From positions 5,711,172 through 5,775,171 of the forward strand of contig CM041201.1 in assembly GCA_023078555.1 (NCBI GenBank): a stretch of DNA of 64,000 nt, read 5' to 3'. Position numbers and translations under genes: made by a program. Source of the stretch: Ulva prolifera (Eukaryota > Chlorophyta > Ulvophyceae > Ulvales > Ulvaceae). This document shows, in pieces, positions 6,233 to 62,677 of this stretch (position 1 is the first letter of the stretch; every line of letters begins with the position of its first letter). The notes below the pieces were generated by a model, which was not told the DNA's origin, did no database searches, and saw nothing but the letters and a program-made list of their open reading frames with translations.

Positions 6233-6730
6233 CAACCAAAGACAATCCCTGGCTGCACATGTCTGGGGGCTTCAGCAAAGTATCGTACAGCATGCATTGG
6301 CCACCGTGCCTCTCGTTGGACCTGGCGTGCCAAAACAAACGATGTGTGCTGACTAAGGCAACATGATGCAGCACAACTTTCTGCATGTTCGGCAGTGGTC
6401 ATCTGCCTATGAGGGGCGAGGCATGCATAGCACGAGGTCATGCACATACAAAGTGGGCTGCTCGGCAGCAGGAGGACATGCTGCGACTTTGGTTGCACAG
6501 GAGAATCGCACACACTTATTACAAAATAATACACTATCCCATCACACATTCGCTGCCAATGCATAGCTATAGGCGTGGCGCCCGGCAAGATAGAACGGAA
6601 ACGCCTCGATAGGATATACGCAGGCACAAAACAACACAGACCTCCGGCAGCGCTACACAACAGGCACAAGAATGCAAGACAGAAGCCTCCTCCCTGCACT
6701 TGAGCGAATGTGCTTATGTGTGATTGACAC
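6233..6730 (-). repeat. 500-bp dispersed repeat, independent copy
   Basis: The reverse complement of this stretch matches, almost throughout, the insert in recombinase intron 2 of element A (15622-16119) and element C (60805-61302). It lies just downstream of the broken protease gene. No long open frame is conserved between copies, and terminal inverted repeats are not evident. Confidence 0.85.
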
Positions 6731-13814: not shown

Positions 13815-14614
13815 GCTCTGTCCTGTTTGGTGAACAAAACGCACGTGGACGAGGTGCTCCTTGCAGAGACTCTAAACATCGCAGCAGCTCCAATGTTGTG
13901 AGCTTCACCTGAAAAACAGTGTTGATGTGTTACTACCTATAACTTGATGCCCGTCCATACAGTACCGCGTGAACCTCCGGTCGGTCAATGTAGCATGCTA
14001 CACTGCAGTGCTCCTTTACACCATGAGATCGCAGGGACATCACCACCACCAGGAATGTTCAAAAGCGATCAGAGGTGTACATGTACATGCCTATCATCAG
14101 CATGGACTGCAAGCAGGCACCATTCTACAAGATGGGAGGCTTGTGTAGGCACGTCACTGTTCGCCTGAGTCCACACCGACATGCAGTAGAGCCACGCACC
14201 GTTTTACGAGACAGCCTGCCTAATGGTCCTAAACAGTGCCTGATCTGCTGACGAGGGCGATACACTGCTTTCCAGTGGTACGGAGTCACACGTGTATGCA
14301 ACAAGGTCGTCACACGTAAGCTGAATGGAAGGACAAGTGTCACATATGCTATCAGGACGTGCCAATCGCATGTGCTGCAGAGTCTGTGCCTGGCACTGTC
14401 GTGATTGCCTGTTGACAATGCCCAGCACTATGGAGCACAAAATGCAGCAGCCAATCTGCCCAGCCAGACCGACAGAGAGCAAGCAATGATCTCGCCAGAC
14501 CAGATGATCCAACCAGCTGTGTCCGGTTTAACAATTGACGGGCAGCAGTGTCCCCGTGCATGCTTTCGCCGCTGCGGGCGGACGCCTGTGAGCGACCGGT
14601 CGTCGCGCGTGTAG

Positions 14615-17522
14615 GAGGCGGCGGTACGAGCTGAACCCCTCGGGCGAGGTGCTCCTGGAGGGGCTCGTGGCGTTGGGCCTCACGAAGGATCGCCTGCACA
14701 AGGCCCGCGCGTGCCTGAACCGCGCCGCGGAGGAGACCAGTCGGCTCGGGGAGCCGTCACGCGCCGTGTGCGCGGCGCTCAACACCACCGAGAAGCCGGA
14801 CTGCACCCTCCCGGAGCCCGAGGACTGGCGTCTGTTGCTGTCGCGCTTCAACCGCACCCTGCCAGGCCTCGAGGACAGCGAGCGCGGCGCGCTGCGCTTC
14901 CTCCGCGCCCACTACGCCGTCATGGTCCTGCGCGGGGAGGACACGGACTCCCTGCTCCGTGCGGACGCCGTCGGGGACGACGCCTTCGTCGTCGACATGT
15001 TCGAGGCCGTCAAGTCGTGGCGGGCGATGACGAAGGACCGCTTCGTCGAGGTCCTCCACCTCCTGCTCTACACCAAGGTCATCGGCAGCAAGGGCTCGCT
15101 GGACGGCATGAAGAAAGCGGTGGGCGATCTGATGAAGGCGTACTACGCGGCCGTGAACGAGGTACGTGCCGCCCGTGTGAAGCTGCGCCGCGGCGCGCCT
15201 CCTGTCCTCCGATGCGGACAGTCCTGCCCGTCGCCCGCAAGGCCGCTGTAGTGACACCGCGTGCGCGCAGGCGGTTGAAGATGCCAGTCCCTTCCAGCGC
15301 TACCAGAGCGTCGTGTCGGGCGTCGCCATGTTCATCAAGTCGTCCGCCCTCAGCGGGATCCGCAAGATCACGCCGCTGTCGGAGGGCCAGATCCGCCGCA
15401 TGGTGGAGGGCATGTACGTCGGCGGCTTCGGGATGATGCAGGCGCGGGTCGTGCTCTCGCTCACCGCGATCGCCGGCGTCCGGAGCACCTTCTTCCAGTT
15501 CTGGCGCTGGGAGGACGTGCACCTCCAGAAGGTGCTGCTGCGGGACGGCGAGGCGGTGCCAGCGTCCGTGGACAACCTGTCACGGGGGGACTGCACGGTG
15601 CGCACCTGCGGCCCTCGCTTATGTGTCAATCACACATTAGCACATTCGCTCAAGTGCAGGAAGGAGGCTTCTGTCTTGCATTCTCGTGCCTGTTGTGTAG
15701 CGCTGCCGGAGGTCTGTGTTGTTTTGTGCCTGCGTATATCCTATCGAGGCGTTTCCGTTCTATCTTGCCAGGCGCCACGCCTATAGCTATGCATTGGCAG
15801 CGAATGTGTGATGGGATAGTGTATTATTTTGTAATAAGTGTGTGCGATTCTCCTGTGCAACCAAAGTCGCAGCATGTCCTCCTACTGCCGAGCAGCCCAC
15901 TTTGTATGTGCATGACCTCGTGCTATGCATGCCTCGCCCCTCATATGCAGATGACCACTGCCGAACATGCAGAAAGTTGTGCTGCATCATGTTGCCTTAG
16001 TCAGCACACATTGTCTGTTTTGGCACGCCAGGTCCAACGAGAGGCACGGTGGCCAATGCATGCTGTACGATACTCTGCTGAAGCCCCCAGACATGTGCAG
16101 CCAGGTATTGTCTTTGGTTCACGTCATGATCGTTCTGCCACATGACGTGCACCTCGTATCGCGACGCCACGGCCGCCGGTGCAGATCGGCTTCGCCCTCG
16201 TGACCCGCCACGTCGTCACGAAGTGCCCGAACGCCTACGGCGTCAACGTGCTGGCGCTCGATCCGACGGGCCTCGCGGCCAGGCGGGGTCTGCCGCTCGT
16301 CGGCAACACGCTGGTCGAGCTCGGCCTCGCGATGGGGGTCTTCGACTGGGCTGCCGTCAACGACCTGGACTTCGGGGAGATCGTGCCGCGCAAGCCGCAG
16401 ACGCGGGAGTGGTGCGCCCCCCCTGCGTGTCGCTGCTGCCCTGCTGCCATGCGCCCCCTGCCCGTGTGGCTTCCTGTGTGCCACGGGCCCCACGGCGATG
16501 TGGCCCGCACCACAGGGCTCACGGGGTGCAGGTACGTCATCTGCGCCCAGGACGACCTCCTCATGCTGCCGTTCGTCAACGTCCCGGGGAACCGCATCTC
16601 CTGGCTCGTCGCGATGGCGGGCGTGCTCGCGGACGTCGGCCCGCGCGGGCGCGGCGTCAAGGCCGGGCCGCGCGCGCTGCGCTCCTCGATGGTCCTGCGC
16701 CACGTGCTCATGCGCATAATCTCCGACCGCCCCCCCGACGAGACAACCCTGCGCCACCTGGGCACCTGGGTCCAGAAGACCGCCTGCGCGGCGATGGTCC
16801 ACTACTTCTCGAACCGCGCGGCGGCGACCACCCTCGGTGGCATGGTACGATGCCGCACCACCCGAGCCCAGCCTGCGCCGCCCTGACTTCCGCAGCGTGT
16901 GTGCGATGCCTCTGCACGGTGTGTGTGTGTGCCATGCAGCAGCACGCCGGCGTGACGACAAACCCGCAGGACATGGAGGCCGCGCGCACCGTCCAGCGCG
17001 TCTCGGCGGACGCGACCGACCCCGGCCCCCCGCCCGTCGCCGGCAACGAGGCGGAGCGCGACCTCGCGTGCTTCCTGGAGTTCCAGGCCAGCGCAGACGG
17101 GCGGCTGCACCAGGCCAGGGTGACCGCGGCCAGCAAGCGCCTCGCCGAGCTGGTCGGTGGCCACGACCCCGGCTCCGGCGGCCAGATCGCGTCCGTGTAC
17201 TTGCGGCTCTCCAGGCGAGTGGCCCATGCCCCGGGCTGGTGGCTCCTCAAGAGGCCCCTCTCCGATGAGCGACTCGCCTCGCTTCCAGGTCTGTCCCCCG
17301 TTCTCGGAGTGTCGAGCCATCGTGATTCCAGCACCTGTTGCCATGATCACTAGTCGTACAGCACAGACTCCTGCCAATTGGCAGTCACAGATCTTGCAGC
17401 ACAACTATGCCGTGTATCTCACCTCTGCCAACATGAGCTCTGCTAGCTGCCATGCATGATCACAGACAGACAGACAGACAGACAGACAGAGGCACAGGCA
17501 CAGACACAGGCACAGACACAGA

Positions 17523-17557
<35 letters not shown>

Positions 17558-17621
17558 ACAGACGCAGATACAGACACAGGCACAGGCACAGGCACAGACA
17601 CAGGCACAGGCACAGACACAC

Positions 17622-17668
<47 letters not shown>

Positions 17669-17749
17669 CAGACACAGACACAGACACAGACACACACAGA
17701 CAGACAGACAGACACAGTCACAGACACAGACACAGACACAGACACAGAC

Positions 17750-17794
<45 letters not shown>

Positions 17795-17878
17795 GACAGA
17801 GACAGACAGAGACAGACACAGACACACACAGACACACACAGACACAGGCACAGACACAGTCACAGACACAGACACAGA

Positions 17879-17942
<64 letters not shown>

Positions 17943-17983
17943 CAGATGCAGATACAGACACAGGCACAGGCACAGGCACAGAC

Positions 17984-18024
<41 letters not shown>

Positions 18025-18077
18025 GACAGACAGAGACACACACAGACACAGACACAGACACAGACACAGACACATGC

Positions 18078-18108
<31 letters not shown>

Positions 18109-21100
18109 CACACACATCCTGTAAAGTTGGCGCAGTGCGCAGGTGTGGTGAAAGACTACACTGTGGTCGTGCGGGAGGCGATTGCTGCCAAAGAAGCCTG
18201 GCTGGCCGCCGCAGAGGACGTCATGTTTGTGGACAAGCGCCGCCTGGACACGCTCAAGGCGGCGGCGACGCTGACACCGGAGCATGTGACGCTGGAGGAT
18301 GTCGCTCAAGACTATCCGTACGGCCCGTTCGACACAGACTTTCATGAGGACGAGGAGGATGCGGGGGACGGCGACGATGCCGTCGTCCTCGATGACAGCG
18401 AGGATGACGATGGCGCTGAGGAGATCGACAGGGAATTTCGCCATGCTGTGCGCGCTGCCGCGGACATCGGCGTCGTCCCCGCCGACGCCATGGAGCTTGA
18501 CCTGGCGGCCGAGCTGGCGGAGCCCGATGCGCGAGACGACGGTCCGGCGACCACCGTGGACCCGGAGGTCCAGGAGGACCCAGACGCGCCGAGAGGGGCT
18601 GTCGGGCGCACCATGGCCGCTGGCGGCAAGGTGGTGGAGATGCACATCAGCCATCAAGTTGCCCTCGCGATCATCCAGAGCCGCTGCTTTCACGTGCACA
18701 AGCTCACCATACGCCCTGAGACCGGCAAGTCCGCGGTGCCGTACCCCGCCTTCATGCGACTGCCTCGGTCGCACGTGGAGTTCGAGGTGGACCTCATGCT
18801 CCTCTCGCATGACGACGGCCACGCTCTCATGGAAGATCTCGAGGGGGTGCTACACGGCAAACTGCCAGTGATCCCGGCACGGGCCTGCAACCTCGACGCC
18901 ACCGTCCGGAAGGCGCTGGCGGCATCGAACATGTGCCTGGTCATGGGATGTCCCGATCACGTGCACCTGGGCACCGAACACGCGCTGCTGCTGTGCCCGA
19001 AGCACCGCAAGGCGGACGTCCGTGTCCGCGGCACGGAGGAGGACATGCGGCGGTGCACCGGGTGCCACAAGCACTTGGACGTGCGGGAGTTCCGTCACGG
19101 CCAAGGCATCGACGGCGACGGAGGGGTCTGCCGCACCTGCTCAGTGCACAAGCGCAATCGGGATGCTGGACGCGGGCAACAGCAGCCGCCGCCAGAGCAC
19201 ATGCCTGCTTCCCCGGCGGAGGTGGAGTCGGGCCGTGATGCCGATGGCTCCTTCATCCTCGAACGTCGCGCCGCCGAGCAGCAGGCCGCCCTGCGCCTCG
19301 ACGTTCGTCCGGGTGAATCTCTCAACTCGCCGTACATCGCGTACGCCTTTTACGACGAGGCGCGGCGGGGTCACTTGCGCCGCTGCGTGCGCATCGGCTG
19401 CTCCGGAGAAGCCAAGCTCAAGGATCGCGACGGGGCCATGCTGTGCAAGCAGTGCTTCGACGTGCGTGCACAAACGCCCCTGCTGTGCCGGAACGCCCGT
19501 ACCGCTTGTCTCTGCTGTATGCCGCCGTTGTCTGTCGGGGCGCCGGGTTCTTCGGCATGCGCATGTATGCATGGAGCCGCCCATCATCGCGGCGGCGACG
19601 CCTCGACCGCGACCGAACGTCACCGGCGCATGCAGGACGTCCGCGGACTACAGTTTGTGCTTGTGGCGGTCGTGGGGCAGGACGGCAAACGGACAGGTGC
19701 GTACATGTACACCCGCCCCTGCAGCACGTGCGGCCTGGGCGTGCCGCTGCAGATGTTCCGGCCGGGGCTCGCTTCATGCGACCGCTGCGTGGCCAAGGTT
19801 ACGGCGTATCGGCGCCGCCGTGTGCCACGCGCGCCACGCGATGTCGCCCCTGCGGGCCACAAGTGGGCGACTCGCGAGACCGCCCTCGAGCTGGACTTTG
19901 ACAAAGCCGACGGCCTCTGCAAGGCCACCACGTGTCCAGCGCAGGTTGCCCGCCGGGGCCGGGGCTCGGAGGCCGCGCAGCGAGCACTGCCCCTGTGCCC
20001 CATGCACATGCCGGTGTGCCTCTCGGGATGACCTCGTGTGCTGCAGAATCAGGCCCCCCTACGTGCGGTCGCATTTGTCTCGAGTTGACGAATCTGCGGT
20101 GGAGTGCACCCAGTAGAGGCATCCCGCGACGTGCGGTCTGCATGTCACATGCTGAAGCATACCGTCACGGTGGGTCTGTGTCTACAAGCACGAACCGCCG
20201 ACGTACGTAGCCAGGAATATCGGTTGGACGTCAGCGGTCGGCTGAAGGACGGCACGCGTGTGTATGCGAAAGCCAGGGACCGGCTGTCCTGGTGGAGTCA
20301 GGAGGCCCACGTACCGCCCCCAGACACCCTCACCAGATGTGTGGATGTGGACGTTCGGTGCCGTGAGCCCGTCGTGTCACTTGTACGCCCACCGAACCGT
20401 GGCGCCGTGGATGCAGGCTTGGTTCTGCATCGACCCCAAGACCGGCCGTGTCCTTCGCTGGTGCTCCACCCACAAGCAGTGGGAGCCCATCGACGGCTTC
20501 GGGGGGTACTGGCGCACGTGTCTGGGCCGGATTCTGCCGTCGACGAGCGCAGAGGCGCTGGAAGCGGCGAGGATTGCAGCTGCAGTCGCGGCAGCGGAGC
20601 ATGCCGCTGACGCCATGCATGACGTCGAGGAGGATGCTGTGGAGTGGAACGTCGAGTGGGGCCGCCAGTCGGAGGTGGTGGATGGCCAGGACGCGGTCGC
20701 GCAGCTTAGGAGCCACCTCGGCAACGAGGTCATCAACTGGGCCGCAGACGTGCTCGGACGAGACCTCTCTGCGATCGAAGAAGAGGATCACTTCGTGCAG
20801 GCGGCGGTGGAGAAGCTGTACGAAGATGGACAGGCCACGGAACAGATCACGGCGACGGGCATTCCGGTGCCGGGCCCGCCGGCACCCACGACGTGCGCCA
20901 TCTGCGCACAATACACGTGCCCGGCCGGCTTCACCGGGCAGTCGGTGTGCCTGCCGTGCGCGGCGCGCGGTCGGGGCGCGGGAGGGCTGTCGCTGATTGA
21001 CGTCAACCACGCCCTCGTATCCGGGCTGCTGTACGGAAAGGGTACGCTCCCGTCGACCGTGATGCCCTGGTCTTTCTGTCTCAGCTCGGGTGTATGCGGA

Positions 21101-22158
21101 CCGTACCCGAATACACGCATCACCGACCTGAGTTCATCCCCCGCGGCCCCCATCTCGCAGCCCTCCAGTCGCGCCGCGTCATGGCACGCGATCGCCGACG
21201 ATCGGGCGCAGCAGTGATGCTCAACTATTCCATGCAGGCCGGATGACGACGAAGCGCGCCGGGTATGTCATCCCGGAGCTCTCAATCATGCACGGAGTCA
21301 CGGCGGAACATGCTCGCGCATTCGCCGAGCTGCGCAGCCGCAGACAGATCGTCGTCATCGGTACCGGCTCGGGCACCGAAGCCGACAGGCGCATGCGTCA
21401 GCTCAGCAGCCAGGCCAGCAAGCGGCGTCGGCGGGATGCGGGCGGGCAGCCCAAGGGCAAGGCACGGAAGAAGCGCGGGCGCACGCGTGACGGATCCGAA
21501 GGCTCTCCGATGGACGGTGCGCTTCCGCCTTGTCGGTCATGTGGTCCTCTTGGCGAACAGTTGCATGATACATGCAACTGAACATCGTCCATCCGCGGTG
21601 TGCGATACAACTGAACGTGGGCACACACCATGGTGTGTGCCTCTCTGCACCCGAGCGTCATGGCTGCATCGCATTGTCGTCGTGCCACATGCCATGCATG
21701 CCCGCCAGACGACCCGCACTCTGACCACTCCACCCCGTACGGATGCAGAGGACGAGCCGCCGCGTGTCGCGCTCCCGCCGGCAAACGGAGTCATGCTGGC
21801 GGTCGCCCGTGCCTTCCAAGCACACGGTCGGGAGTGGCTCACCGACCAGGCGCGGGCGCGCAATGCCATGGACGTCGTGTGCGGGTCACTGCCCGCATTC
21901 GGGCGGGGCCACGGCCGCTGCAACTTCGGCTCGCTGGAGTCCATCCAAGCCATGGCCGCGACTGGCACTGTCCCCTTGAGGGTCCTCAAGCTGCCGAATG
22001 GAAAATTCCAACAGGCACGACCCAGCATCGCCGATGTCACCTCCAATCCCGTTACGCCGCTCCCGGAAGCAGTTGAGTTGAAACGCCACGAGCGCGTGTG
22101 TACGCCTTTGCGCGTCATGTCCGATTGGATGCAACAGCGACGTTGGTGTACCGCATGA
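14615..22158 (+). CDS. Tyrosine recombinase spliced to a multi-zinc-module region (element A)
   Basis: Exons, with phases matching at every border up to exon 6: 14615-15161, 15271-15597, 16185-16411, 16532-16844, 16940-17288 and 18143-20013. Exons 21238-21516 and 21749-22158 also fit. The join at 20013 to about 20340 is unresolved; the frame of [18 protein letters not shown] then runs to 21041. The first exon with the start codon was not found. Recombinase core: ArgI at 15481 ([19 protein letters not shown] fits the box I helix), Lys at 16221 (VTKCPN), ArgII at 16698 (VLRH), Trp at 16767 (LGTW) and nucleophile Tyr at 16803 (VHYF). ArgII-to-Tyr spacing is 35 residues. The usual His three residues before ArgII is Met. 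Exons 6-7 add an acidic stretch and about six CxxC/CxxH modules (for example [13 protein letters not shown]...CRTCSVHK, and CAICAQYTC...CLPC). Exon 8 is strongly basic. It should cut and rejoin element ends, with the zinc region binding DNA (inference). Confidence 0.75.
15622..16119 (+). repeat. 500-bp repeat inserted in recombinase intron 2 (element A)
   Basis: Intron 2 is 587 bp here but 145 bp in element B, where a different 62-bp stretch occupies the position. The insert matches the reverse complement of 6233-6730 and recurs in C at 60805-61302. Confidence 0.85.
17460..18115 (+). repeat. CAGA/CAGACA microsatellite in recombinase intron 5 (element A)
   Basis: Mixed CAGA, CAGACA and CAGGCA runs cover about 655 bp inside the phase-1 intron 17289-18142 (donor CCAG|GTCTGT, acceptor GCGCAG|GTGTGG). 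The run has no stop in several frames, so it creates long spurious open frames (TDRQ-, SVSV- and CLCL-type). The length differs in B (about 615 bp) and C (about 233 bp). Confidence 0.9.
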
Positions 22159-22356
22159 TGCCCACTGCCTGTGGCCAATGAACGAGAGGTCACGCTCTCA
22201 GGATCCCCGAACGGCCCCACCCCGGTGGCGTCGTCGCTGTGCTTGTACAATCCCCCGGTGGATCGGTCTCCGACCCGTGCCGACGTAGCACGTGCGGAGT
22301 GCGTGTGTCAGCCCCGGTGAAGCGACACTGTGGTGGTGCAGGTTGTATGCGCACGC

Positions 22357-24516
22357 ATGCACGGCATGCGTGGCTCGAAGGAAGGTGCCTCGGAGGACAT
22401 CGCCGGCTGGACATGGTTCGGCGGGGTCCGGCTCGGGCGCGACCATGGCACCGTTTTCGGGACAGTCGTCATGAAGAACAAGAGCTCGGGACGCAGGCTC
22501 GCGAGTGGCCGTGACACGCAGGAGCACACGACCGCCGTCCAAGTGGCGCGTGACGCAATCGCGTTGCTTCTGCCGCGACTGTCGGCCGCCTTCCCGTCCT
22601 CCCCGACGAGCCCCGTTCACGTGGTGACTCTTGCGATCCTCCACCAGTGCCTCGACAGCCTCTCGCCGCTGTCGGTGGTGGAGCCCACGCAGCCGACGGT
22701 GCTGATCCCTGTGCACCTCTGCGCAGCCAGCCTGGCCCACCGGGAGCACTTCGGTGCAGACGTGTCCACCGCGGTCGGCTATTGCACGGCCCGCATGGCG
22801 TGTGCCCTCATGGCGGCGAGGGAGAGCGACGACTTGCCGGAGGCGATGTGGAAGTGTGTGCGCGGCGCCGCCATCGCGACCATGACGGCGGCCGGCGCCG
22901 ATCCACCAGACCATGCGCGATACGTGGCCGGTGCCGTGGAGGCCTGCAAGAACATCAGGCGGAGCCTCCCACCTGCGCTGCGGCTGAACCACGCCGGGGA
23001 CCTCGCCGCGGGATTCTTCATGACGGCCGTCACGGAATCGGACAGGATGACGGCCGAGCGCCTACGGGCGCACGTCGCGGGCGGCGTTGCTCCGGGCGTC
23101 GGCATCACGCCGTCGCGCCTGTTCCCGGACGAGCGCACTGGTGCTGCCGCCCATGGCGAATGCCCCGCCGCTGGACCGAGCGGTGATGGCGCGGGAGCGT
23201 CGACGCGGTTCGCACTCGCGACCGGGGACGGCGGGGCAGTCCCGGCCCATCGGCCAGCATGCCTGGCTCCTCCAGCAGCGCGTGCACTCGACTCGGCAGT
23301 CCCCGCGGCAGCCGGCCGCGCCCCCATCGCGGCTGCGATTACAGGCCAGGCCTCCCAACCGCCAGGCGAGGCCCATCCCGGAGCAGCGCGCCGTGGCGCA
23401 GCAGCGCAGACCTCCGGTGCGGCAGCCTCGGAGATGGCTGCTCCTGCGGGCGAGGGCGCCCTCGGCGCGGAGGTGCAGGCCTCCCCTCAGGCGGCACAGC
23501 CCCTCGGAGACGCGGGCCAAGGGCCCCCCGAGGAGGCGCAGCCCTGCAGTGCTGCACAGGCCCTGCCTGTGGTGGTGAAGCAGGAGGGGGCCGGGGCTGC
23601 ACTTCGCGGCGTGGCTGCACGCCGCTACGACGGGCCGCTGATCATCATATCGTCCAGTGATGATTCTGGCGATGATCCAGAAGTCGTTTTGGCCGCCCCT
23701 CCAGACGTGCCTCCTGCGTCCGGCATCGCGTCGACGGCACCCCACCTGGGGCAGCTACCGCCTCCCGCTCTGCCGGAAGCTGCTCGGCACCCCGTCGGCG
23801 GCCAGCCTGTGGCCGCTGCAGCGCACGCCCCGCCTCTGCCGTTGCTTGCCAGTGAGGGTTGTGTTGCTGTCGCGATGCCTGCACTCGACGGTGCTCCGGC
23901 TGGCCAGCAAGAGCACCTCCCTGAAGCACAGCCCGCGCCACCGCCGGGCGGGGGCGCGGCCAACATGACCGCTGCGATCATGGGTGTCCAGGAGCACGTC
24001 CCCGTCGTCGCAGAGCTCGCAGTGGGCGGCGCACCGGCGCACGGCGCTGCACCGGCCGCCCAAGCGGGGCAGCCCGCTGCCGTTGTCCCTGGCGCACAGC
24101 CCGCACCGCCGCAGGGCAGGGGAGCGCTCAACCTGGCCGCCGCCGTCATGGGTGTCCAAGGGCCCGCCGACGCCGCTGTCCACCCGCCGGAAGCCGCGCC
24201 CGTCGAGCCTGCAGCGGCGGTGCAAACTGCTCCGCCTCCCGCCGGGGGGCAGCCTGCGGCTGCCGCGCCGGACGCACAGCCCGCGGCACCGGCGGCCGGA
24301 CATCATGCCGTGAATCTCGCCGCCGCGGCCTTGCAGGGCCCCGTTGACGCCGCCGCCCACCCGCCACAAGCCGGCCCCGCCGAGCCCGACGTCCCGGGGC
24401 CGCCCCTCACCAGCCTGACGGCGTCTCAGCACGCCGTAGAAATCAACGAGTATGTGTACGACCGTTCTAGCCTGCCACCGGACGTGTACGGCGAGATCAT
24501 GACGATCCGGCCGCCG
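22357..24516 (+). CDS. Ala/Pro/Gln-rich protein with SUMO-type motifs (element A)
   Basis: I do not recognise the family. The ATG at 22357 or 22366 (MRGSKEGASEDIAGWTWF) is the likely start. A globular helical-looking segment of about 260 residues comes first (including AVGYCTARMACALMAAR). A low-complexity half follows with degenerate repeats of AQPAPPQGRGALNLAAAVMG. At about 23570-23670 the sequence VVKQEG fits the SUMO acceptor consensus, followed by LIIISSSDDSGDD, a hydrophobic core plus acidic tail as in SUMO-interacting motifs. The exon appears to end at a GTGCGG donor at 24516. It may continue into the helicase, but the splice phases I could find do not agree (phase 0 versus phase 1), so two separate genes remain possible. 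In copy B the low-complexity part lacks two internal segments. Confidence 0.6.
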
Positions 24517-24650
24517 GTGCGGACCCCCCTCCACCCCGCCTGCTGTTGTCCTGCTGTCACATGTGCCGTGCGCGCTGCGTGCGTGGCGGCGGTCCACCGT
24601 GCCCTCGCCTGCCACCTCGCACCCCCTGCTCCGCGGGCCAACTGTCAAAG

Positions 24651-26957
24651 CGCGGGACGCCGTGCAGGACCTGCTCGAGGCCGTGACCGGCGGCCCGTTC
24701 CATGCGGTCCTGATCCTCGGCTCCGGCGGCAGCGGCAAGACGTACACCTGCGAGGTGATGTACAACGGTGCCAAGCGCGACCTCGGACGGCGCGCGGTGG
24801 CACGCTGCACACACAGCGGCCGACTGGCCGCCACCATACGCTGCGAGACATTCCCGCGCCGCTTCAAGGTCGGCTCGCTCGCGCTGCACATGACCCCGCC
24901 GTACAGCGACATCACGGCGGCGCGGAGCGTCGCGAGCATCGACCTCCTGTTCGCGGAGGAGTTCACCGCCATGTCGAACCGCCTCGCCGAACACAACCTC
25001 AGGGCATACAGGGCTGCGAAGGAGTCGGTGAACTGGGCAGCGCGCCAGCTGCTGCAGCCCGAGCCGTACACCGACCTGCAGCAGCCGCTCGCTGGCCTCA
25101 AGCTCGTCGCCAGCGGAGACCACCTGCAGCAGATCGTCGCCCCGGGGGGCGTCGGCCGCGTCGTCGACGACCCCGCCAGCGCAGACCACGGCCTCGCCGT
25201 GCCGTACAACCCCCCCGCCGACATCGGAGACAACGTCTGGGAGCTGCCGTCCCTGCAGAGCGCGGCGACCAACGTGCTCGTCGTCCTCGTGCACGGCAAC
25301 CATCGCCTCGTCGGGCGGATGCACGAGATGCACTGCACGGGGTGCGCTCTCCCCCGACCGCCGTGGCCTCCCCTGAGGCGCGGCCCTGATGATTGCGTGA
25401 TCCGCATGCTCGCGTGCATGATGTCGCCGTGCGCGGCTCTCACGGCGCGCCTTGTGGCCTGAGCGGCGTCCGCGGCGGACGCCGCCGCCCTGCTGTGACC
25501 GACGGCCGCCTGGGCCCCGTGTGTATCCTCCGCTGCATGCTGCAGGCAGAGCGGCGAGATCTCGCACGAATGCATGCTGCTACTCCTCGGGCGGGTGGAG
25601 TGCATCGACAGGCCGGTGTGGTTCTACGAGGCGGCGCGCCTGCCCAACTACCCGCAGGTGGTGCCCCCGGGCAACCCGTACCTGCCGTTCACCATCGTCG
25701 CCGTCGCGACCGCGGCCGAGACGGAGGAGGTGTACTACGACCGCCTGAGGCCACAGGCCAAGTACCGGGACGCGTATGACTTGGCGCCCGCGCCTCCGGC
25801 CGACGCGGATGAGCCCGCGCCCAAGTCTGTGAACATTCCCTGGGTGCCGGAGGCGGGCCAGCCGCCTCAGTGCCGGCGGACGATGCAAGTGACGTGCAAG
25901 CGCGTGGACGAGTTCCTCTTCCGGTGCGTCCGCGCCCGCTGTGTCTGTGTGCCGGGCCCTGCCTCTGCTGCCACCTGCCTACATCCTCCGCGGGCGTGCG
26001 CCGCGCTCCGGTCGCATGACTGCCTGACTCCCCCTTCCCCCCCGCCTGCGCCTCACGCTGGCGCCGTGCAGGACCACCGGACGCTGCGCGATGGCGCGGA
26101 AGGTGATCTCACAGCTCAAGGCGTGGTCGCGCATCGTCGTGACGCCGGGAGAGCCGATGATCACGACCCACGCCTTCGCCGGCGTCGGCCCCGGCTCGTA
26201 CGCCGTCGTCACGCACTTCCAGAAACGCACGTTCCACTCCGTGCTGTCGTGCGTGGAGTCCACCCTGGCCGTCCAGGTCAAGAACTGGCAGCAACGGCGC
26301 GGCTACGACCCCCACGTCGGCAGATTCGTGCGCGGGGTCCTCCGGGACCTCGTGCGCGCGGTGCTGAAGAAGACCTTGGCGCCGCTGCGCATCCCCGATG
26401 CGGAGGACGCCCCGCAGAGGGATCCCCTGTACGCGATCCCGTTCGCGAACCTCTGGAACGGCGTGGACGCGCAGGTGCACCGCTTCGTCCAGGTCAACCC
26501 CGTCGTGGTCGTCAAGGTGGAGGAGAACCCCGCGGTGCCGAGCGAGCCGCGCCCGCTGTCCGTGCACGGGCTGCTGCCGATCAAGCCCTGCGGCGTGCTG
26601 TGCGCCAGCGAGCTGCTGAGCTGCAGCTTCAAGCCCGCCGAGCACCGCGTCCTCATGCACGCGCCGCTGCTCAGGGACGTCCCGCGCGATGAGAAGGTCG
26701 CCGCGAACATCGTCCTGATGTCGCGCGTGTCGGCGATGGCGGACTTCGCGGTCACCCCGGAGACGGCCATCACGTCCGACATGCTGCGACATGGCACCAC
26801 GACCCGGGACCTGCGGCAGCACGTCGCACGGCAGGGGGGGAGGTGGGTGATGCGCCACGTGCACATGGCGCGGGACGGCGCGGCCGCGCCTCAGCTGCAC
26901 CACCCCAGTGGCTGCATCGACGGGGGCAACGACCGCATCCCCAACATGGAGGCGTAG
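24651..26957 (+). CDS. PIF1/RecD2-like superfamily 1 helicase (element A)
   Basis: Exons 24651-25341, 25546-25923 and 26072-26957 join in matching phase 2 at both borders. Walker A is GSGGSGKT (about 24725). Motif Ia-like THSGRLAATI follows, Walker B-like LLFAEEF has EE in place of DE, and motif III-like VASGDHLQQI comes next. HGNHRLVGRMHEMHC fits the motif IV region. The last exon has GPGSYAVVTHF and NPVVVVKVEE, as in the PIF1 domain that follows the NG-rich loop, then ANIVLMSRVSAMADF, aligned with the YVALSRV motif VI. The TIHKSQG-type motif V is not recognisable. Such helicases unwind DNA 5' to 3' in repair or in element replication. The stop codon is TAG at 26955-26957. The N-terminal join to the upstream exon is unresolved. 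Confidence 0.75.
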
Positions 26958-27520
26958 GGGGGCTCGGAGTGTGTGGTGCGTGTGCTGGGGCACCTTGTGT
27001 TGTGTTGCAGTGTATCTTGGGGAGGCCGGGGGTGTCGCCGCCCTGTGACGTGGCACCGCGCGGGCCCCCCATCAGGTGCACCCGGCTCCGCTCGGGCGGA
27101 GGTGTCCAGTGTCGTGCGGATGTGTAGAATGCTCGAGCGGACTGTAGAGGAGGTGCCCCGTCGTGTTGTGTTGATGTGTCGATGACAGACACCCTTGCAT
27201 GCGTGAGGATTCCGTCGTACCCAGGTCGACTCGATTGCGTGAGGATTCATATGTAACCACAAAAACTCCAGGCCTCTGCAACAGCTCGTGGTGCAAGCAT
27301 GGCTGGCAGGGGCGACGTACGCCATCAACAGTGCGATCACCTCCGCCTGCCATCCAAAGGCGTGCTGTCCATAGCCGCAACAGCAGGGGGACACTCAGCC
27401 GCCACAATAGCAGCAACAGCAGCCACGACTACAGCGACGACAACCTCCACTGTTGCTGCAGCATACACCTGAAGTACGGGAAACTTAGCTGACTCGGCAG
27501 ACGTTGGTGGTTTTGCTGTT

Positions 27521-27543
27521 ACATGCGGCTGTCCTGTTGGGCG
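27521..27543 (+). repeat. Candidate right-end attachment site of element A
   Basis: ACATGCGGCTGTCCTGTTGG plus three bases matches 42035-42057 (ACATGCAGCTGTCCTGTTTG plus three bases) at 20 of 23 positions. That site marks the left border of element B. The same CTGTCCTGTTTGGTG begins A at about 13817 and C at 59000. Confidence 0.4.
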
Positions 27544-27741
27544 GGAGAGCACGGTTTCGGATCCGTGTGGTTGCACGTGTTGTGCCGGGATGCTGTGACA
27601 TCGCCAATATTCGGACGTGTTCTGTTTCTTCGGTGCCTGAGACATGATTGCATGACGTTTGGTGCATGCGTGTGTAGTGTGCAATCGCCACCACATGCTG
27701 CAGTTGCAACATGCAATGGCTGGTTCATTGGCTGATTGGTT

Positions 27742-28010
27742 GTGGCCAGCAGGCCACCTAGGGGAAGCAGGTGCGTGTCATGCCCCTCAGCATGACCAAA
27801 TGTGGCTATGCTGAAGCGGCATGACAGGCACTCTTTCCCTAAGCAGCGCTGCTCACTGCACTACCTTGATGCCTTGCTGCCTGTGGCCAGCAGGCCACAG
27901 AAGTCAAGCGTGTGCGTGCCACACCCTTCAGCATGGCCACACTGACATGTGCTGAAGCAGCCACATGACAAGCTGTCTTCGAGTAGCGCTGCTTACCATG
28001 CACCGCTGAT
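27742..28010 (+). repeat. Two-unit tandem repeat, about 139 bp, hairpin-containing
   Basis: TGTGGCCAGCAGGCCAC starts at 27742 and again at about 27881. Both units go on to a CAGCATG...GTGCTGAAG segment and end near AGCGCTGCT. The first 15 bases are themselves an inverted repeat. Confidence 0.65.
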
Positions 28011-30711
28011 ATTCACTGCAGCACACTGCAACCTCTCTGTTATGCGCTCCGCCCACTCTGGCATGCCGGTGCTAGAGGCTGAATAAAAGAACGCTGGTGA
28101 ACTGCAATTGATTGATGCGTCTTCAGCTCTTGGCCTGCCATCTCTGTAGCGTACCCTGGCAAGATCTGCACCCGTATGCCTCATTGTGCACACACACGTA
28201 TGCAAGAAACTCATGTAGTTGAAGCTGAAGGGCTCGATCCACAGTATTTCACAGGTGCAGGACACCGCAACACAAGCTCAAAGCTCAAAGCACACTGCAA
28301 TGTAAAAATTACGAGCCGACACTGCCTCGCAACTTGCCCATGCAAAAAAATGTGTTATCCGCATATGCTGAATCCGTGTGCAAGCGCAGTGGGTAAGCTG
28401 CAACTGATCGCATGGTGGGGCGAGGCTGACGGTGCCTCGAGAGGGATCGAGTTAAACCATCAGACGCTATCACTTAGTTGCACGGACCCCACTGAAACTA
28501 CAAGTCAGAGTTTCGCCTCCTTGTGAATGCGGGTCTGCGTTGGATGCACATGTGCTAGGACCTATGCGCTGACCAGCAACTACAGCGGTGCTTTCCACTG
28601 GAATCGGCTACCCTTGCTGAACTCTTGACAAAAGATTGCAAAATAGTAAACAAAAGGATGTAGCGCTGCAGAATCAGACGTCTACCGGTGATGTGATGTG
28701 TTTAGCGTGTGCAGTCGCGCATCCCCGTCGAACACCTGTTCTAGACGCCTGTGCACTGCCATCACAATGAAAAATACGATCAGTGTTCAACAATTTCGTA
28801 CCTCAGGTATACACAGGGCAGCGGATCGGGCAGCGGAACGTCGCGGCGGTGCTGCGAGCTGCTGCAGCACCACACCGCTGTGCCGGCGACCCCGCGACGC
28901 GGTTCCCCATCCCATAAGATAGCGCATGGATAGCGGCAGTTCCTACAGATCCCTGTCGAGGCTGCCGTACCCAACGGTCGCATCTGCGCTCGCCAGGCGC
29001 ACACACGGGCTGCTGGGAGGCCGGCGCTGACGTACACTTAGACAGCTACGCAGAACGCCCAAACATGACTTTGATGAGGTTAACATTTATTATCAGCCTA
29101 CAGCAAGTATTTGCACAGTCGACGTGCCTTGCACAGGCCCCGGCCGGATACCGTTGATCGGAAGGCAGGCGGATCCGTGGGCCTCTGTCGCTGCCACCAG
29201 ATGCCCTTACACAAACCAAACAGACTTTGTGTGCTCTTGTCACGGCGTCCGGGCAGTCCACAGCGTGGCGTGCACTGCAATGCAGTGTGTCTGCGCCTGT
29301 GGCGCGACGCAGCTGCTGGGGCTGCGCGGATCTGCGTGCATGCATGCATCCGCCGCGGCGCGCCCGACGCGGAGGCATTCGAGCGTGCACATGTATGGGT
29401 GACAGATGGCTTACGCAGCTGCGCGCAGCTGCGCGCCCTACGCCGCTGCTGCGTCGGGGAGTCGACATCCCGTGCACGCTCGTCGCGTTGCAGCCGTGTT
29501 GCGGTTGTTCGGCGTGGACTGTGCGGCGCTGCGACACACAGCTGCCTGCCGGGCCAGGGCCGTTGTTGCGCAGGCCCGGCCGGGAGGCGGGCTGTTGCTC
29601 GTGCCAGCACGACCGTGGCGCAGGGGGCTTCCTGAAAGAAAAGGCTTCAGCAGGCCCCCTACGTCACTACTGGGCTGTTTGGTTCGGTCACAGCTACATA
29701 GCACACGCGTGTTCTTGGCTGAATCCTGCAGCCTTCTTGCAAGACAGGAATTACCACTGCGATGCTGATGCCAGGCTGCCCGGACACCACCGGTCGGTCT
29801 GCAACGGCGTGCGAACGCCAGCCTCGCTGATACGGTGGGCGGTTCGCATCACGAAACAATCCACAACACCAGCAGCGAACTTGAACAATACCGTGAGAGC
29901 TGCATCGGAGACTCACACAAGCGCAGACCACAGCCTGCAGTGGCTGGTAGGTCCGCTGGCGTCGGTTCCGTCGTACCGCGCACATGCAGCAACGTCCGCA
30001 GAACACGGCGATGCCCGAACCGCTGCTGGTTACCTCAAATGAGATCCGTCAGTTGCCTCAGCGTCTTGGCCATTTGCGCTGCGACCTGCGTCAATGCACG
30101 CGACAGAACACTCAGCACGGCCCAACTGTGAACACATCGTTGCACTACCACTCTACGCACGCTTCAGATGCAAAGTAAAAGCAGACATGCCGGTAAGAAT
30201 GGCAGGCGAGGCTGCTGACCATGTGCTATACACAGGCCGGCGTGCATGGCTTGTGCAACGCTCGCGTGGCCAAGTGCACAGCGCGCAGCGCACAAGCGTG
30301 CCCTGCCGACAACATCGCCAGCCTGTAGCAGGAAGCACATGAAGCAAACGCTTCGACCTGAGGTTGTCACAACTCAGCACGGTCCACCTGTAGGTCACTC
30401 GTACGTTGTCTCTGGTTCTGGACGGCGCTCACCTGAAGCCTTGTCGTCGCGGGTCGCGGACGATACCTCCAGGCGTCGAAATGTCAGCAGATGCTAACGC
30501 TTACATGGAGGTGCGTTGTTGTCTCTCTTTGCGCAGCGCTTGAACTCTCATGTTAAACTCTCATTTCACAGCGCCGTCAGGTCCAAAACCGGGTGTCCTC
30601 GCCACAGGCATAAGATCCCATGTGGCAGCCCGAACGTCTGTGGCCATGTTTCGGTTGCCCTGTTATGTAACAAGGGCTTCGTCGTCGTCTTCAGTAGTAT
30701 CACCTTCACTG

Positions 30712-34319: not shown

Positions 34320-35158
34320 CAATCGTCACAGGAGCCGAGCCGGACGAGTCGACATATCGGGATTGACAAGACAGGCGCACAACACGACAGGCGCACGCTC
34401 TACGATCTACGATATATCGGGATTGTTTTGAACTTTGAACCGACAGCCGACAGCCCGACGCGCTTCTCTCCACTGCGAGCTTTGTAGTTCGTTGCAGGCT
34501 GCGTTGTTGCAGCTCCGAATTTGTGCAGTAAAGCGTAAAGTTTATGTGTTCTCACTGACCAGCTTTCCGCTGCGAATAACTTGATGCGGACGACTGAGTA
34601 CTGCCGTTGCGTCGCGTGCATGCTCGCCCGATTGTCGCCTTAACTCAGATTTGAACGGGACACCGCGTCGCCTGACAGAACTGCACAATTCAACACTAAT
34701 GTGAAGCTGATGTCATTTTAATAAGCACTTAGGAGGTCAGTTTTTGCGTCGAAAACGCGGTGCGGAGGAGGTCGTGGAACGTCGACCGACGAGGCGGGTC
34801 GAAGCCCGGCCCCAGCGAGGCGAGGGAGGCTCGGGGACGGCGCCTGGATGCACGAGACAGGCAAACTGGCACGCGGAGGCCCTTTTTGGACAGGGCTGCG
34901 CGTGTTAGGGGTGCCGGAGGCAGCGTGGGGCGCGCGGCGAGGGGACAGCGGGCGGGACGTTGGTGGCGGAGGTCCCAGGCGCGCGGTGCGAGGCGAGCGG
35001 GCGAACGCGGGGCACAGAGGGTCAGAGAGACACGGATGTTTGCGCTGGCCGGTGCGAAGCGGCGTGGAAGGCGGCGTGGAGGGATGCAGGAGGTGGACGA
35101 GGTCGTGGCGAGCTGTACGCCGTGCGGTGAGCGCCGAGGCGCAGCCGGCGCCGTGAGG

Positions 35159-35460
35159 GCAACAGGAAGATGCAGAGGTCGTTGGAAGAGACACGATCGA
35201 GCGCATATGGCGTCGCAGAGCTGGCGGTCGTGCGTGCAGGCGTCGCGGTGCGTGTCGTGTGAAGGCACCAGTTCAGGCCTGGTCGCAGTGGCAGGAAAAG
35301 AGCCTGCGAGCAACAGGAAGATGCAGAGGTCGTTGAAAAAGACACGATCGAGCACATGTGGCGTCGCAGCGCTGGCGTTCGTGCGTGCAGGCGTCGCGGA
35401 GCGTGCCGTGTGTATGCACGAGCGCAGGCCTGGTCGCACAAGCGGCGTGGCAGGAGCCTG
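35159..35460 (+). repeat. Two-unit 151-bp tandem repeat
   Basis: GCAACAGGAAGATGCAGAGG starts at 35159 and again at 35310, and the units align to their ends at AGCCTGCGA. The second block has the same pair at 52298 and 52457 with a spacing of 159 bp. The ORFs across it on either strand are Arg/Cys-rich and probably spurious. Confidence 0.75.
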
Positions 35461-36527
35461 CGAGGTCAGCTCGAGGACGGAAAAGATAACCTTCCAAGAG
35501 CTAATTACCTTTGCGCGACAGGATGTGGTGTATGCGACGTGGGCGGACGGGGACGCAGCGCAGAGGCGATCGCGGCATTGCAGCAGGTGGCGACAGGCGC
35601 AGCTACCGCAAGGTTCGGAGATGTACGCCATCGCGCGAGCAACGACCGCGGACGTGTCGGGATACATCTATCAACGCAGCACGGGCGACGGTGCTGTATT
35701 GCGTATATCCCGGGTCGCAGCGGGAAACCAGATAACACATTCAGGTCGTCGGCCAACTCTACCGGCGCCGTTGCAGCGCACCGGTAGCAGCGTTCTTCGT
35801 AACACCGCCGCTGTCGTGTTCTCGGTGGGTAATTGGTAATAGGGGTCGTTCTGTCGTGTGGCACGGCTGCGTCAGGCGTCGTAGCGGTCGGGGCGTTCGA
35901 CGCCAGCCTCGCACGTGTGCGACCAGGTCCCAGCGAGGTCACCACGGTGGCGCGCCCTTCGTGAAGCCCGATCCCCAGCATACGCACGCAGTCACAGAGG
36001 GTGACGTTCTTACACCGCTTGCAAGAGGCCGTGTCCGTGGGAGCAGCGGATCGTCACACAGTCGGTCGGGACGACCTAGGTCAACCGGGCGAGCAGACCG
36101 TCGCCTACACTGGCCACGACGGCTCCGCAGGCGTGCACAGGCGCAGTCTGTCGTCGTATATAGCCGCGGGAGGAAGGCATGGCGACTGCAGAGGCCGAGG
36201 AGTTGTCCAAGCGGTGCGTTCCGTGGCAAGGCGCCCAGCCTGGTCGCGGCTGGTTGCGTAAGCGCATGCATAAGGGGCGCGTCGGTACGTAAGGGTCGCT
36301 GTCGGTCAGTGGCGAGCTGGCGACGATGCAGGCGCTACACAAGGCAACGTAGGCATAGGCTGCATTCGTGTTTGGCACACCAGCATCATCCGGGCGAACG
36401 GGAAGATGTTTATCGTGCGACCTTGAGCGTGCCGCTCGTCCGCCGATGGCATGGCATGCGCGCGCGTTGGTAAACTTGCCCCGTGTGGGCGCGGCTGTAG
36501 TGTGATCGTGTGTGTCTCGATGATGGT

Positions 36528-36690
36528 TCGGATGAGATCCTTCTGCGGTATTTGTCTTTTCCCGTTCACTGTCGCCGTGGTTTCTGGTCCGGTATACATA
36601 CCAGTCTCGTCTCTCGACGCAGGTTATCTTGTTTAACAAAAGAGTGAACTGGAGAAGACAAACGCCGAAACCGAATCTAATTCGAATCAA
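36528..36690. repeat. Inverted pair of dispersed 57-bp repeats
   Basis: The left arm (36528-36577) reads TCGGATGAGATCC to CCCGTTCACTG on the plus strand. The right arm (36635-36690) is the opposite orientation, starting ACAAAAGAGTGAAC. About 60 bp separate them. The pair is repeated at 53672-53838. Confidence 0.7.
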
Positions 36691-37067
36691 CAGCCTTATC
36701 TTATCTCGCAGACAGCTGCGGTGCATTGCTATGCCAAGCATGTATCTGCGCAATGCATGTACACACGTCTGCGGCATCACAACTCCACCCACACACAGAT
36801 GCATACTTGTCTCCACCATGTTCTTTGCCGATGGATGGATGGGACTCATCAGACTGGTCACAAAAGAGCCCGACCCCTACTCAGTGAGCGTCGGCCTGTA
36901 CAGCTACACCAAACAATTTGACCACTCTCCTACCCCCCGTGTCCGCTACTACATTCGTCTGTTATTGCAATGCATTGTGCAGAGGCACCTGCCGTTTTTA
37001 TGCGTGAGGCATGTACAAGTGCTAGTATGGGTCTGGTTGGGCCTGGTAAGTCAAGCAGGGCAGCCAT

Positions 37068-37494
37068 GCATGTAACGATCCAGGCGCTCGAGAATGGTCG
37101 GTGGGGCACCAACCATTCGGGCAGTCATGCATGTAACGATCCAGGCGCTCGAGAATGGTCGGTGGGGCACCAACCATTCGGGCAGTCATGCATGTAACGA
37201 TCCAGGCACTCGAGAATGGTCGGTGGGGCACCAACCATTCGGGCAGTCATGCATGTAACGATCCAGGCGCTCGAGAATGGTCGGTGGGGCACCAACCATT
37301 CGGGCAGTCATGCATGTAACGATCCAGGCGCTCGAGAATGGTCGGTGGGGCACCAACCATTCGGGCAGTCATGCATGTAACGATCCAGGCGCTTCAGAAT
37401 GGTCGGTGGAGCACCAACCATTCGGGCAGTCATGCATGTGACGATCCAGGCGCTCCAGAATGGTCGGTGGGGCACCAACCATTCGGGCAGTCAT
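37068..37494 (+). repeat. Palindromic minisatellite P2, seven 61-bp units
   Basis: Units start at 37068, 37129, 37190, 37251, 37312, 37373 and 37434, exactly 61 bp apart. The hairpin arms are GAATGGTCGGTG and CACCAACCATTC around GGG, the same core as P1. The flanking part differs (GTAACGATCCAGGCGCTCGA). The array ends about 250 bp before the first recognised exon of recombinase D. The second block has only six units (54215-54580). Confidence 0.95.
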
Positions 37495-37746
37495 GCATGT
37501 GACGATTCATGCGTGGCGTGGCGACTAAGAATGACTGGTAAGGGTCTGGTCTGGCAGCACGCGGGTTTTTTGTTACCGTATCTTGCTGCTGGGTGTGTAT
37601 TCCCCAGCCCCAGTTACCCGCACTCTGCCCTCGCACCAGCTGCAGCCTCCCGCCCCTGACCGGTCCGCTCGCGTACTGAATCGGCCCCGTGCGTCGGTGT
37701 GATCTAGCCGCGTCGGCGTATGTGCCAGAGACGGACTCTTGTGTAG

Positions 37747-42034: not shown

Positions 42035-42853
42035 ACATGCAGCTGTCCTGTTTGGTGAACAAAAAGCACGTGGACGAGGTGCTCCTTGCAGAGACTCTAA
42101 ACATCGCAGCGGCTCCAATGTTGTGAGCTTCACCTGAAAAACAGTATTGATGTGTTACTACCTGTAACTTGATGCCCGTCCATACAGTACCGCGTGAACC
42201 TCCGGTCGGTAAATGTAGCATGCTACACTGCAGTGCTCCTTTACACCATGAGATCGCAGGGACATCACCACCACCAGGAATGTTCAAAAGCTATCAGAGG
42301 TGTACATGTACATGCCTATCATCTGCATGGACTGCAAGCAGGCACCATCCTACAAGATGGGAGGCTTGTGTAGGCACATCACTGTTCGCCTGAGTCCACA
42401 CCGACATGCAGTAGAGCCACGCACCGTTTTACGAGACAGCCTGCGTAATGGTCCTAAACAGTGCCTGATCTGCTGACGAGGGCGATACACTGCTTGCCAG
42501 TGGAACGGAGTCACACGTGTATGCAACAAGGTCGTCACGCGTAAGCTGAATGGAAGGACAAGTGTCACATATGCTATCAGGACGTGCCAATCGCATGTGC
42601 TGCAGAGTCTGTGCCTGGCACTGCCCATCTGCCCAGCCATGCACATCCGTTGAGCTGACGCGTCTTTGATAAGGCAGTTGCAATACACCGGAGACCAGTG
42701 TGGGTGTGCGCTGGTGTGGATTCGTGGCTGACTGAAGCGGGTTAGCAGCTTATCCAACCAGCTGTGTCCGGTTTAACAATCGTGCGGTCGCGTTCCCGTG
42801 CATTTCGCCGCTGCGGGCGGACGCCTGTGAGCGACCGGTCGTCGCGCGTGTAG

Positions 42854-45827: not shown

Positions 45828-45870
<43 letters not shown>

Positions 45871-49901: not shown

Positions 49902-50099
49902 TGCCCGCTGTCTGTGGCCAATGAACGAGAGATCACGCTCTCGGGATCCCCGAACGGCCCCACCCCGGTGGCGTCGTCGCTGTGCTTGTACAATCCCCCG
50001 GTGGATCGGTCTCCGACCCGTGCCGACGTAGCACGTGCGGAGTGCGTGTGTCGGCCCCGGTGAAGCGACACTGTGGTGGTGCAGGTTGTATGCGCACGC

Positions 50100-51878: not shown

Positions 51879-52297
51879 TTTTTGCGTCGAAAACGCGGTG
51901 CGGAGGAGGTCGTGGAACGTGTACCGACGAGGCGGGTCGAAGCCCGGCCCCAGCGAGGCGAGGGAGGCTCGGGAACGGCGCCTGGATGCACGAGACAGGC
52001 AAACTGGCACGCGGAGGCCCTTTTTGGACAGGGCTGCGCGTGTTAGGGGTGCCGAAGGCAGCGTGGGGCGCGCGGCGAGGGGACAGCGGGCGGGACGTGG
52101 GTGGCGGAGGTCCCAGGCGCGCGGTGCGAAGGCGAGCGGGCGAACGCGGGGCACAGAGGGTCGGAGAGACACGGATGTTTGCGCTGGCCGGTGCTGAGCG
52201 GCGTGGAAGACGGCGTGGAGGGATGCAGGAGGTGGACGAGGTCGTGGCGAGCTGTACGCCGTGCGGTGAGCGCCGAGGCGCAGCCGGCACCGTGAGG

Positions 52298-53671: not shown

Positions 53672-53838
53672 GGTTCGGATGAGATCCTTCTGCGGTATTT
53701 GTCTTTTCCCGTGCACTGTCGCCGCGGTTTCTGGTCCGGTATACATACAAGTCTCGTCTCTCGACGCAGGTCATCTTGTTTCACAAAAGAGTGAACGGGA
53801 GAAGACAAACGCCAACACCGAATGTAATTCGAATCAAC
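53672..53838. repeat. Inverted pair of dispersed 57-bp repeats, second-block copy
   Basis: This corresponds to 36528-36690 with scattered substitutions (for example GTGCACTG for GTTCACTG). Confidence 0.7.

Positions 53839-62644: not shown

Positions 62645-62677
<33 letters not shown>

Follow-up and report, generated by a model that had tools for sequence, protein, structure and literature searches.

What kind of element carries a recombinase-like region and a helicase on the same strand, and does it fit a known class? The question is raised by a 64,000-nucleotide stretch of the Ulva prolifera genome (C6:5711172-5775171, hereafter the window), in which an earlier note had described recombinase-like exons, a zinc-rich region and a PIF1-like helicase on one strand of positions 13815-27530. 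All three were found where described. Self-comparison of the window resolved three copies of one subfamily (A1, A2 and A3) and two of another (B1 and B2), and relatives were sought across the genome (88.9 Mb, 44 contigs; positions outside the window are given as contig:position). These copies probably belong to a family of large DNA-mobile elements, each complete copy coding for a single spliced protein of some 2,900 residues that comprises a tyrosine recombinase-like (YR-like) region, SBP domains, a linker and a PIF1-like superfamily 1 (SF1) helicase. Most likely they are YR-helicase DNA transposons of a family not described before, arranged much as Helitrons are.

The gene and its three regions

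Only A1, which begins at 13815 (plus strand), retains a helicase among the A copies of the window, and its gene was modelled as a single unit of 14 exons (14618-26957, plus strand) with 2,912 open codons, no stop other than the final one, 12 GT-AG introns and one GC-AG intron. Diverged copies from C9, C10 and C1 were compared by tblastn with the plus-strand frames of the window, and splice borders were read at block ends. The conserved blocks are collinear from 14625 to 26387, and homologous exons with GT/GC-AG borders are present in the C9, C1 and C10 copies, so that splicing of the predicted gene is supported by comparison. In the C10 copy all 14 exons were recovered, with no stop in exons A to M and three in exon N. 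In the C9 copy 11 of the 12 exons tried were recovered (exon L, next to exon N's, was not found), with one stop in the joined frame. The C1 copy, for which 12 exons were tried, is partly decayed: exon J was not found and exon C came out wrong. Hand-set borders were used for exon C of C1 and for the F1 donors of both C9 and C1, C1 being frameshifted afterwards. Even in the distant C8 copy, 10 of the 14 exons are recognisable in the same order at 26-55% amino-acid identity. The ratio of nonsynonymous to synonymous substitution rates (dN/dS), from a simple Nei-Gojobori script, was 0.27-0.34 between the window and C9 (three exon groups) and 0.43-0.55 between the window and C10 (four exon groups, dS up to 1.3). 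Exon conservation together with ratios of 0.27-0.55 in all seven comparisons indicates that the coding content is real and has been under purifying selection. Moreover, because no stop interrupts the frame between the YR region and the helicase, across the zinc region and the linker, and the exons are conserved, the three regions form one polypeptide. The splicing proposed earlier is supported by the comparison, and the proposed pairing of a recombinase/zinc gene with a second, helicase gene gives way to one gene.

The YR-like region occupies the first four exons, all on the plus strand. Exon A (14618-15161) encodes its N-terminal part and holds the putative start, where recognisable coding begins; it is 54-76% identical in amino acids to the C9, C1 and C10 copies by tblastn and ends at the border GAG/gtacgt (homologues P0001, P0002). 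In P0001 the continuous frame contains an upstream Met, at a place where the window has stops. Exon B (15271-15597) carries box I, with Arg I at 15481-15483, and exon C (16185-16411) carries a conserved Lys at 16221-16223 that is kept in the C8 copy. Exon D (16532-16844) contains box II, PRALRSS (Arg II at 16680-16682), followed by GTW (Trp at 16767-16769) and HYF (Tyr at 16803-16805); the Trp lies 29 residues past Arg II and the Tyr 12 past the Trp, and the lambda equivalent of box II is HELRSLS. These residues, assigned by eye (R252, K303, R416, W445 and Y457 in model numbering), are kept in the window, C9, C10 and C8 copies, the last being 38% identical across the domain. A box I pattern written after viewing the sequences, [TASC]G.R.{7}[KR]W.D[IV], matches lambda Int TGQRVGDLCEMKWSDI at the lambda Int spacing. 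It is present in three of the four rows covering box I (window, C10 AGLRTPFFQYWRWQDV and C8 AGTRTPHFAYLRWGDV; the first residue in C9 is Val) and in none of 20,000 shuffled proteins, and across six frames of the window it occurs four times, in A1, A2, A3 and B1. We call the region YR because its catalytic motifs are kept in diverged copies, and the evidence for this identity looks good but not final.

Several results weigh against the call. The box II His is replaced by Arg, and Cre lacks the box I pattern. Profile searches of the region against Pfam, PHROGs, NCBIfam and PDB matched no recombinase family, and its few weak Pfam matches were to unrelated families (the best, Herpes_UL46, at E 0.0069 in one of six members). 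An hhalign comparison with Cre did not rise above shuffles, of which some of the 20 rows repeat and may be stale; the test proved powerless, because the control, lambda Int, missed Cre too. One of the four rows for this comparison, L171, was left out owing to stops in its translation. An AlphaFold model of exons C-D, translated through the in-frame C-D intron, was unusable at a predicted local distance difference test score (pLDDT) of 36. PF00589 gave no match across the whole genome.

The same motifs would suit a Crypton-like cut-and-paste YR transposon, which would move through a circular intermediate with crossover at a short core and for which the helicase would be an accessory rather than the motor. 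A YR followed by a DNA-binding domain is indeed the CryptonF plan (PMC3212892). How the helicase is tied to the YR bears on this alternative, and is taken up below.

Between the YR and the zinc region lies exon E (16940-17288, plus strand), 55% identical in amino acids to the C8 copy; the intron that follows contains a long ACAGAC-type array (17462-18116). Exon F1 (18143-19461) encodes an acidic stretch, the first SBP-like zinc module and part of the second, exon F2 (19636-20013) the remainder of the second and the beginning of the third, and exon G (20417-21041) the remainder of the third with an extra C-x2-C pair (all on the plus strand). A 388-residue piece scored 28.1 bits with PF03110 (SBP; cut-off 27), two stretches of it passing, of which the best spans F2-G, and all three family members match at E <= 1. 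A longer piece of 774 residues scored 22.5 bits, under the cut-off, which counts against the assignment. These modules appear to be of SBP type, each having a pair of zinc sites, and a third looks the same by eye from its Cys/His spacing; thus the zinc region seen earlier is retained, and its count of about six modules is replaced by two SBP-type modules by profile and one by eye. SBP domains are described as plant-specific (PMC6407117), and the strong SBP matches in this genome (best 62.5 bits, cut-off 27) accordingly indicate a member of the green lineage. Some of them lie outside the element clusters, at C9:2.10 Mb and C4:1.95 Mb. Clusters of SBP-like matches at C5:3357182-3469763 (mostly about 23 kb apart) and C1:3540893-3764872 have no YR exon D match, and perhaps represent further relatives or another SBP-bearing element.

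Exon H (21238-21516, plus strand) is recognised by a conserved block with splice borders. Exon I (21749-22014, plus strand) precedes the GC-AG intron, whose donor CAG/gcacga has GC in C9 too and GT in C10. Exon J (22342-24516, plus strand) has a conserved start, continues as an Ala/Pro-rich linker and splices in frame to the helicase. There, exon L (24668-25341, plus strand) contains what we take to be PIF1-like motifs I (GSGGSGKT, 24719-24742), Ia, II (AEE), III (GDHLQQ) and IV, exon M (25546-25923, plus strand) continues the helicase at 41% amino-acid identity to C10, and exon N (26072-26957, plus strand) ends it at a TAG stop, with a homologous end in L042 and L045. Exon N also holds the motif VI-like segment noticed before, MSRVSAMADFAV. 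By eye, motifs I, Ia, III and VI can be made out. A three-member helicase profile found ScPif1 as its top match in PDB (E 0.017), and PF05970 scored 26.3 bits in homologue P0008 (cut-off 25.9) and was also above this threshold at three loci of the element (C2, C1 and C10). Against these results, the window helicase exon itself scored 14.2 bits with PF05970, under the cut-off, its Walker B is AEE (EE), and its AlphaFold model was unusable (pLDDT 38). A Foldseek search with that poor model ranked Pif1 first to third at E 1.6-1.8 and was not used as evidence.

A genome-wide protein search gave 27 YR exon D matches, all of which were used, and 16 helicase matches, which merged to 13 loci. At 11 of these 13 a YR exon lies 6.2-14.1 kb upstream on the same strand, the other two being C2:10841957 and C5:3564399. 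For example, on C8 the YR (4052492), SBP (4054274) and helicase (4062081-4062806) keep their order at 35-40% identity. Helicase matches also come after the B-type YRs at C6:5824065 and C6:5855672, and one of these matches contains an internal stop. As the earlier note proposed, the helicase belongs to the element and not to an unrelated neighbour, since it is part of the same protein and its order is kept in diverged copies. In the reverse direction, a helicase is lacking from the 15 kb downstream of 16 of the 27 YR matches, whereas a YR is missing at two of the 13 helicase loci (Fisher p 0.016; loci not independent). Two of the 11 loci weaken the tie: at C2:10.88-10.89 Mb (C2:10891519) an A-like helicase (92%) is paired with a C9-like YR (83%), so that the pair may be chimeric, and the helicase match at C2:10900349 is weak, at 32 residues. 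For a helicase that is merely accessory to a Crypton-like transposon, its place in the same frame as the YR and its company at 11 loci, B-type and C8 copies included, are awkward, as is a dN/dS of 0.55 in exons L-M (one comparison). Nor was a short direct repeat common to both ends found, the 3' end not being located. Excision and integration in the manner of Cryptons is the chief alternative, and we think it rather unlikely.

A remnant of an integrated DNA virus, for instance of the polinton-like group, would also bring together such domains: a YR is reported in some polinton-like members and a PIF1-like helicase in the related Tlr1, as separate genes (PMC4642659). Here the domains form one spliced gene, 20 other open reading frames of the window gave no capsid, packaging ATPase or polymerase match (a statement about the window only), and among viral contigs 45 pattern matches included no relative. 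We consider a viral origin very unlikely.

Termini, junctions and arrays

Transposable elements are marked by defined termini in unrelated flanks; such a terminus is seen here at the 5' end, the 3' end not being located. In one subfamily three copies begin at the identical base, CAGG[TC]AGTATTTTAGCACTTTTCGC, in three different flanks. Close relatives of this start, AGGAGAGTCTTTTAGCACTTTTCGC, open the copies at L257, L080 and window position 55940, and a 5' end of the form (C)AGG..AGT.TTTTAGCACTTTTCGC is found at 55940 and elsewhere, again in different flanks. Overall, the same or a closely similar terminus occurs on C6, C9 and C1, once inside a dispersed repeat. B copies begin TCATTTTAATAAGCACTT at 34713 and 51851.

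The copies in the window are arranged as follows. A2 (39838-51854, plus strand) starts inside the leader and stops in linker exon J, at the start of B2. A3 (55940-64000, plus strand) has its terminus AGGAGAGTCTTTTAGCACTTTTCGC at about 55940 and its exon A from 59801, continues past the window edge and is interrupted in exon F1 200 bases outside the window. Adding the A3 leader to the A1 gene coordinates puts the stop codon about 16 kb from the 5' end of the element. B1 (34713-39840, plus strand), with the 5' end TCATTTTAATAAGCAC, has recognised exons A to C only, at 39-61% amino-acid identity to A, and is cut at the A2 leader start. B2 (51851-55924, plus strand) begins inside A2 exon J, and its homology to B1 stops just before the A3 terminus. 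The three A copies counted previously in 64 kb are thus present, with the full gene set in A1 alone.

Of eight 5' junctions mapped, six fall inside another family member, always in sense orientation, one in a dispersed repeat that we call R1 and one in unmatched DNA. Besides A3 in B2 and B2 in A2 exon J, the six are L252 in A3 exon F1 (equivalent to window 19440), L253 in a B-type exon D, the C9 copy in a B-type leader (equivalent to window 35933) and L257 in a C9-type intron. Empty sites are readable at five junctions (51851, 55924, L252, L054 and L257); target homology stops at CAT or two bases past it in three of the five but not in the remaining two, and we claim no target motif.

YR clusters lie at C6 5.63-5.92, C9 1.03-1.08, C2 10.5-10.9, C1 2.76-2.80 and 12.1, C10 1.19 and C8 4.05 Mb, a distribution that may be centromere-like. 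Tight clusters of uniform strand (13 of 13 plus on C6, 4 of 4 minus on C9) are also what one would expect if the copies were host genes of one family, or a domesticated gene, multiplied in a few places by segmental duplication, and long flanks or leader pieces common to some copies point the same way. Such a history would leave unexplained why copies on C6, C9 and C1 have the same or nearly the same 5' terminus although their flanks differ, one of these being a dispersed repeat, as well as the diverged subfamilies and the many copies without parts, and we judge it improbable. At C2 10.55 Mb one YR copy is on the opposite strand to the copies at 10.85-10.89 Mb.

Some observations on the ends count against the favoured reading. 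A1, which starts at 13815 in R1, and A2, which starts at 39838 in the leader, lack the 5' terminus, so that not every copy is complete at its 5' end. Deletion could account for the missing 3' parts, and neither a 3' end, a target duplication, circles nor single strands were found.

There are further details of the ends. In L254, L255 and L256 the exact 5' terminus was not seen in the retrieved stretch, and in L036 it is degenerate. Past the A3 break no A-type match resumes (beyond 19441; 15 matches). Likewise for the 3' part of A2, none resumes at the break on C6 (16 matches to 24503-27600), the exception being DNA near C6:5865 kb that is about 99% identical to window 27330-27681. On the 3' side L042 and L045 diverge after ..GGGGCCGCGAAA, and the identity of L039 shifts near window 27330; because these disagree, we claim no 3' end.

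The borders first drawn for the element, 13815 and 27530, were rejected. The former cuts R1 at its truncation point and the latter lies inside a stretch shared at about 99% with another locus. A direct repeat, CTGTCCTGTT, at 13818 and 27529 was tried as a crossover core and discarded too, its left copy being inside R1 and its right copy inside the duplicated stretch, so that it is not terminal. The R1 fragment upstream of the gene spans 13818-14504 (plus strand), and R1 recurs at 41698-42623 and 58639-59687, measures at least 1.1 kb and is internal in A3. It has at least 40 matches, on C1, C2, C3, C5, C6 and C7, of which at least 35 lie outside the five C6 A copies, with 78-95% identity there among the matches listed. 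It continues left of 13818 in 12 retrieved copies, and right of 14504 in 15 retrieved ends and the C7 copy. Another dispersed repeat has a sharp start at 27657 (window 27657-28300 and beyond; at least 47 matches), and its relatives on C1 3.54-3.73 Mb sit 239 bases past five SBP-like matches. A 497-base repeat at 15623-16119 and 60806-61302, inverted at 6234-6730, is found in the B-C intron of A1 and A3 and is absent from A2, a small insertion with a ready empty site. Tandem repeats with units of 61 and 153 bases occur in element leaders (37058-37513, 54205-54599 and 56078-56554).

A proposed route of movement

YR proteins cut DNA through their Tyr and remain attached to it. If the YR call is right, the zinc modules and recombinase-like region would bind the 5' end of the element, and the Tyr would cut one strand and stay attached. 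From the cut, unwinding by the helicase would then carry away either a single strand or a copy in the course of replication, which would be joined to DNA at a new site, in many cases within a family member already present; where the process stopped early, the copy would have no helicase. Such a replicative process begun at the 5' end, in which replication would be coupled to recombination as had been suggested, is the route we favour because the helicase is fused; its odds are lowered because A1 and A2 lack the 5' terminus, and we hold it tentatively, at rather less than an even chance. A more specific version would make the element a eukaryotic transposon of a new mechanistic class, a Helitron analogue in which a YR replaces the HUH nuclease, with a 5' nick, PIF1-like strand displacement, site choice by the SBP domains, preferential one-way entry into its own kind and clusters that maybe mark distinct parts of chromosomes, for example centromeres. 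As a whole, this scheme seems to us rather unlikely.

Were the YR call true, a direct test of replicative movement by eukaryotic YR elements would become possible, and one could ask if, in green plants, SBP domains were exchanged between genes of the host and mobile elements. In addition, one-way self-targeted arrays are an anatomical signature to seek in other algae.

Comparison with known systems

The earlier view that this gene combination matches no known class was borne out, in that Pfam scans covering the protein detected no HUH Rep, reverse transcriptase, DUF3435 or GCR1_C. Nor did a full-text literature search, which took in neither Repbase nor most subscription papers, turn up an element whose single protein unites YR, SBP and PIF1. 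The Helitron helicase is PIF1-like, and zinc motifs precede the Rep. Like Helitrons and Helentrons, the present element encodes a single long protein in which a helicase at the C terminus is combined with a cutting domain; it differs in that no HUH domain, named Helitron_like_N, was detected and the presumed cutting domain is YR-like. A- and C9-type copies showed no Helitron termini (TC...CTRR with a hairpin) at their 5' ends, whereas B-type copies begin TC. The Helitron RepHel is described as exceeding 1,500 amino acids and joining a replication initiator to a helicase (PMC6431247).

Cryptons share the YR-like region with a DNA-binding domain, but that domain here is SBP and not GCR1_C, the helicase is fused, and no 6-bp terminal direct repeats were found, the 3' end not being located. 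They are several times smaller than the present element. The Crypton paper mentions Chlamydomonas reinhardtii in the legend to a figure (PMC3212892). With Starships the element has in common that it is large, YR-type and in a eukaryote, but it has no DUF3435 match and consists of one fused gene, in place of a captain with cargo. The captain-plus-cargo plan is typical of Starships. DIRS elements are set apart by the absence of a reverse transcriptase match in the spliced protein or the 20 other window open reading frames. We know of no fused helicase or SBP domain in MobK, a protein that we compared by description only. It offers a precedent for a YR-like relaxase, being a YR-like protein that acts as a site-specific relaxase of a bacterial plasmid (PMC8152469). 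SBP-box transcription factors resemble the zinc modules in that both match PF03110, but the modules here are tandem, diverged and within a mobile-element protein. For each of Helitrons, Starships, DIRS and Cryptons, one or more of the defining features tested did not agree. If the YR call is true, a type of recombinase normally without a helicase is joined here to the helicase type of rolling-circle Helitrons, with plant SBP domains between the two.

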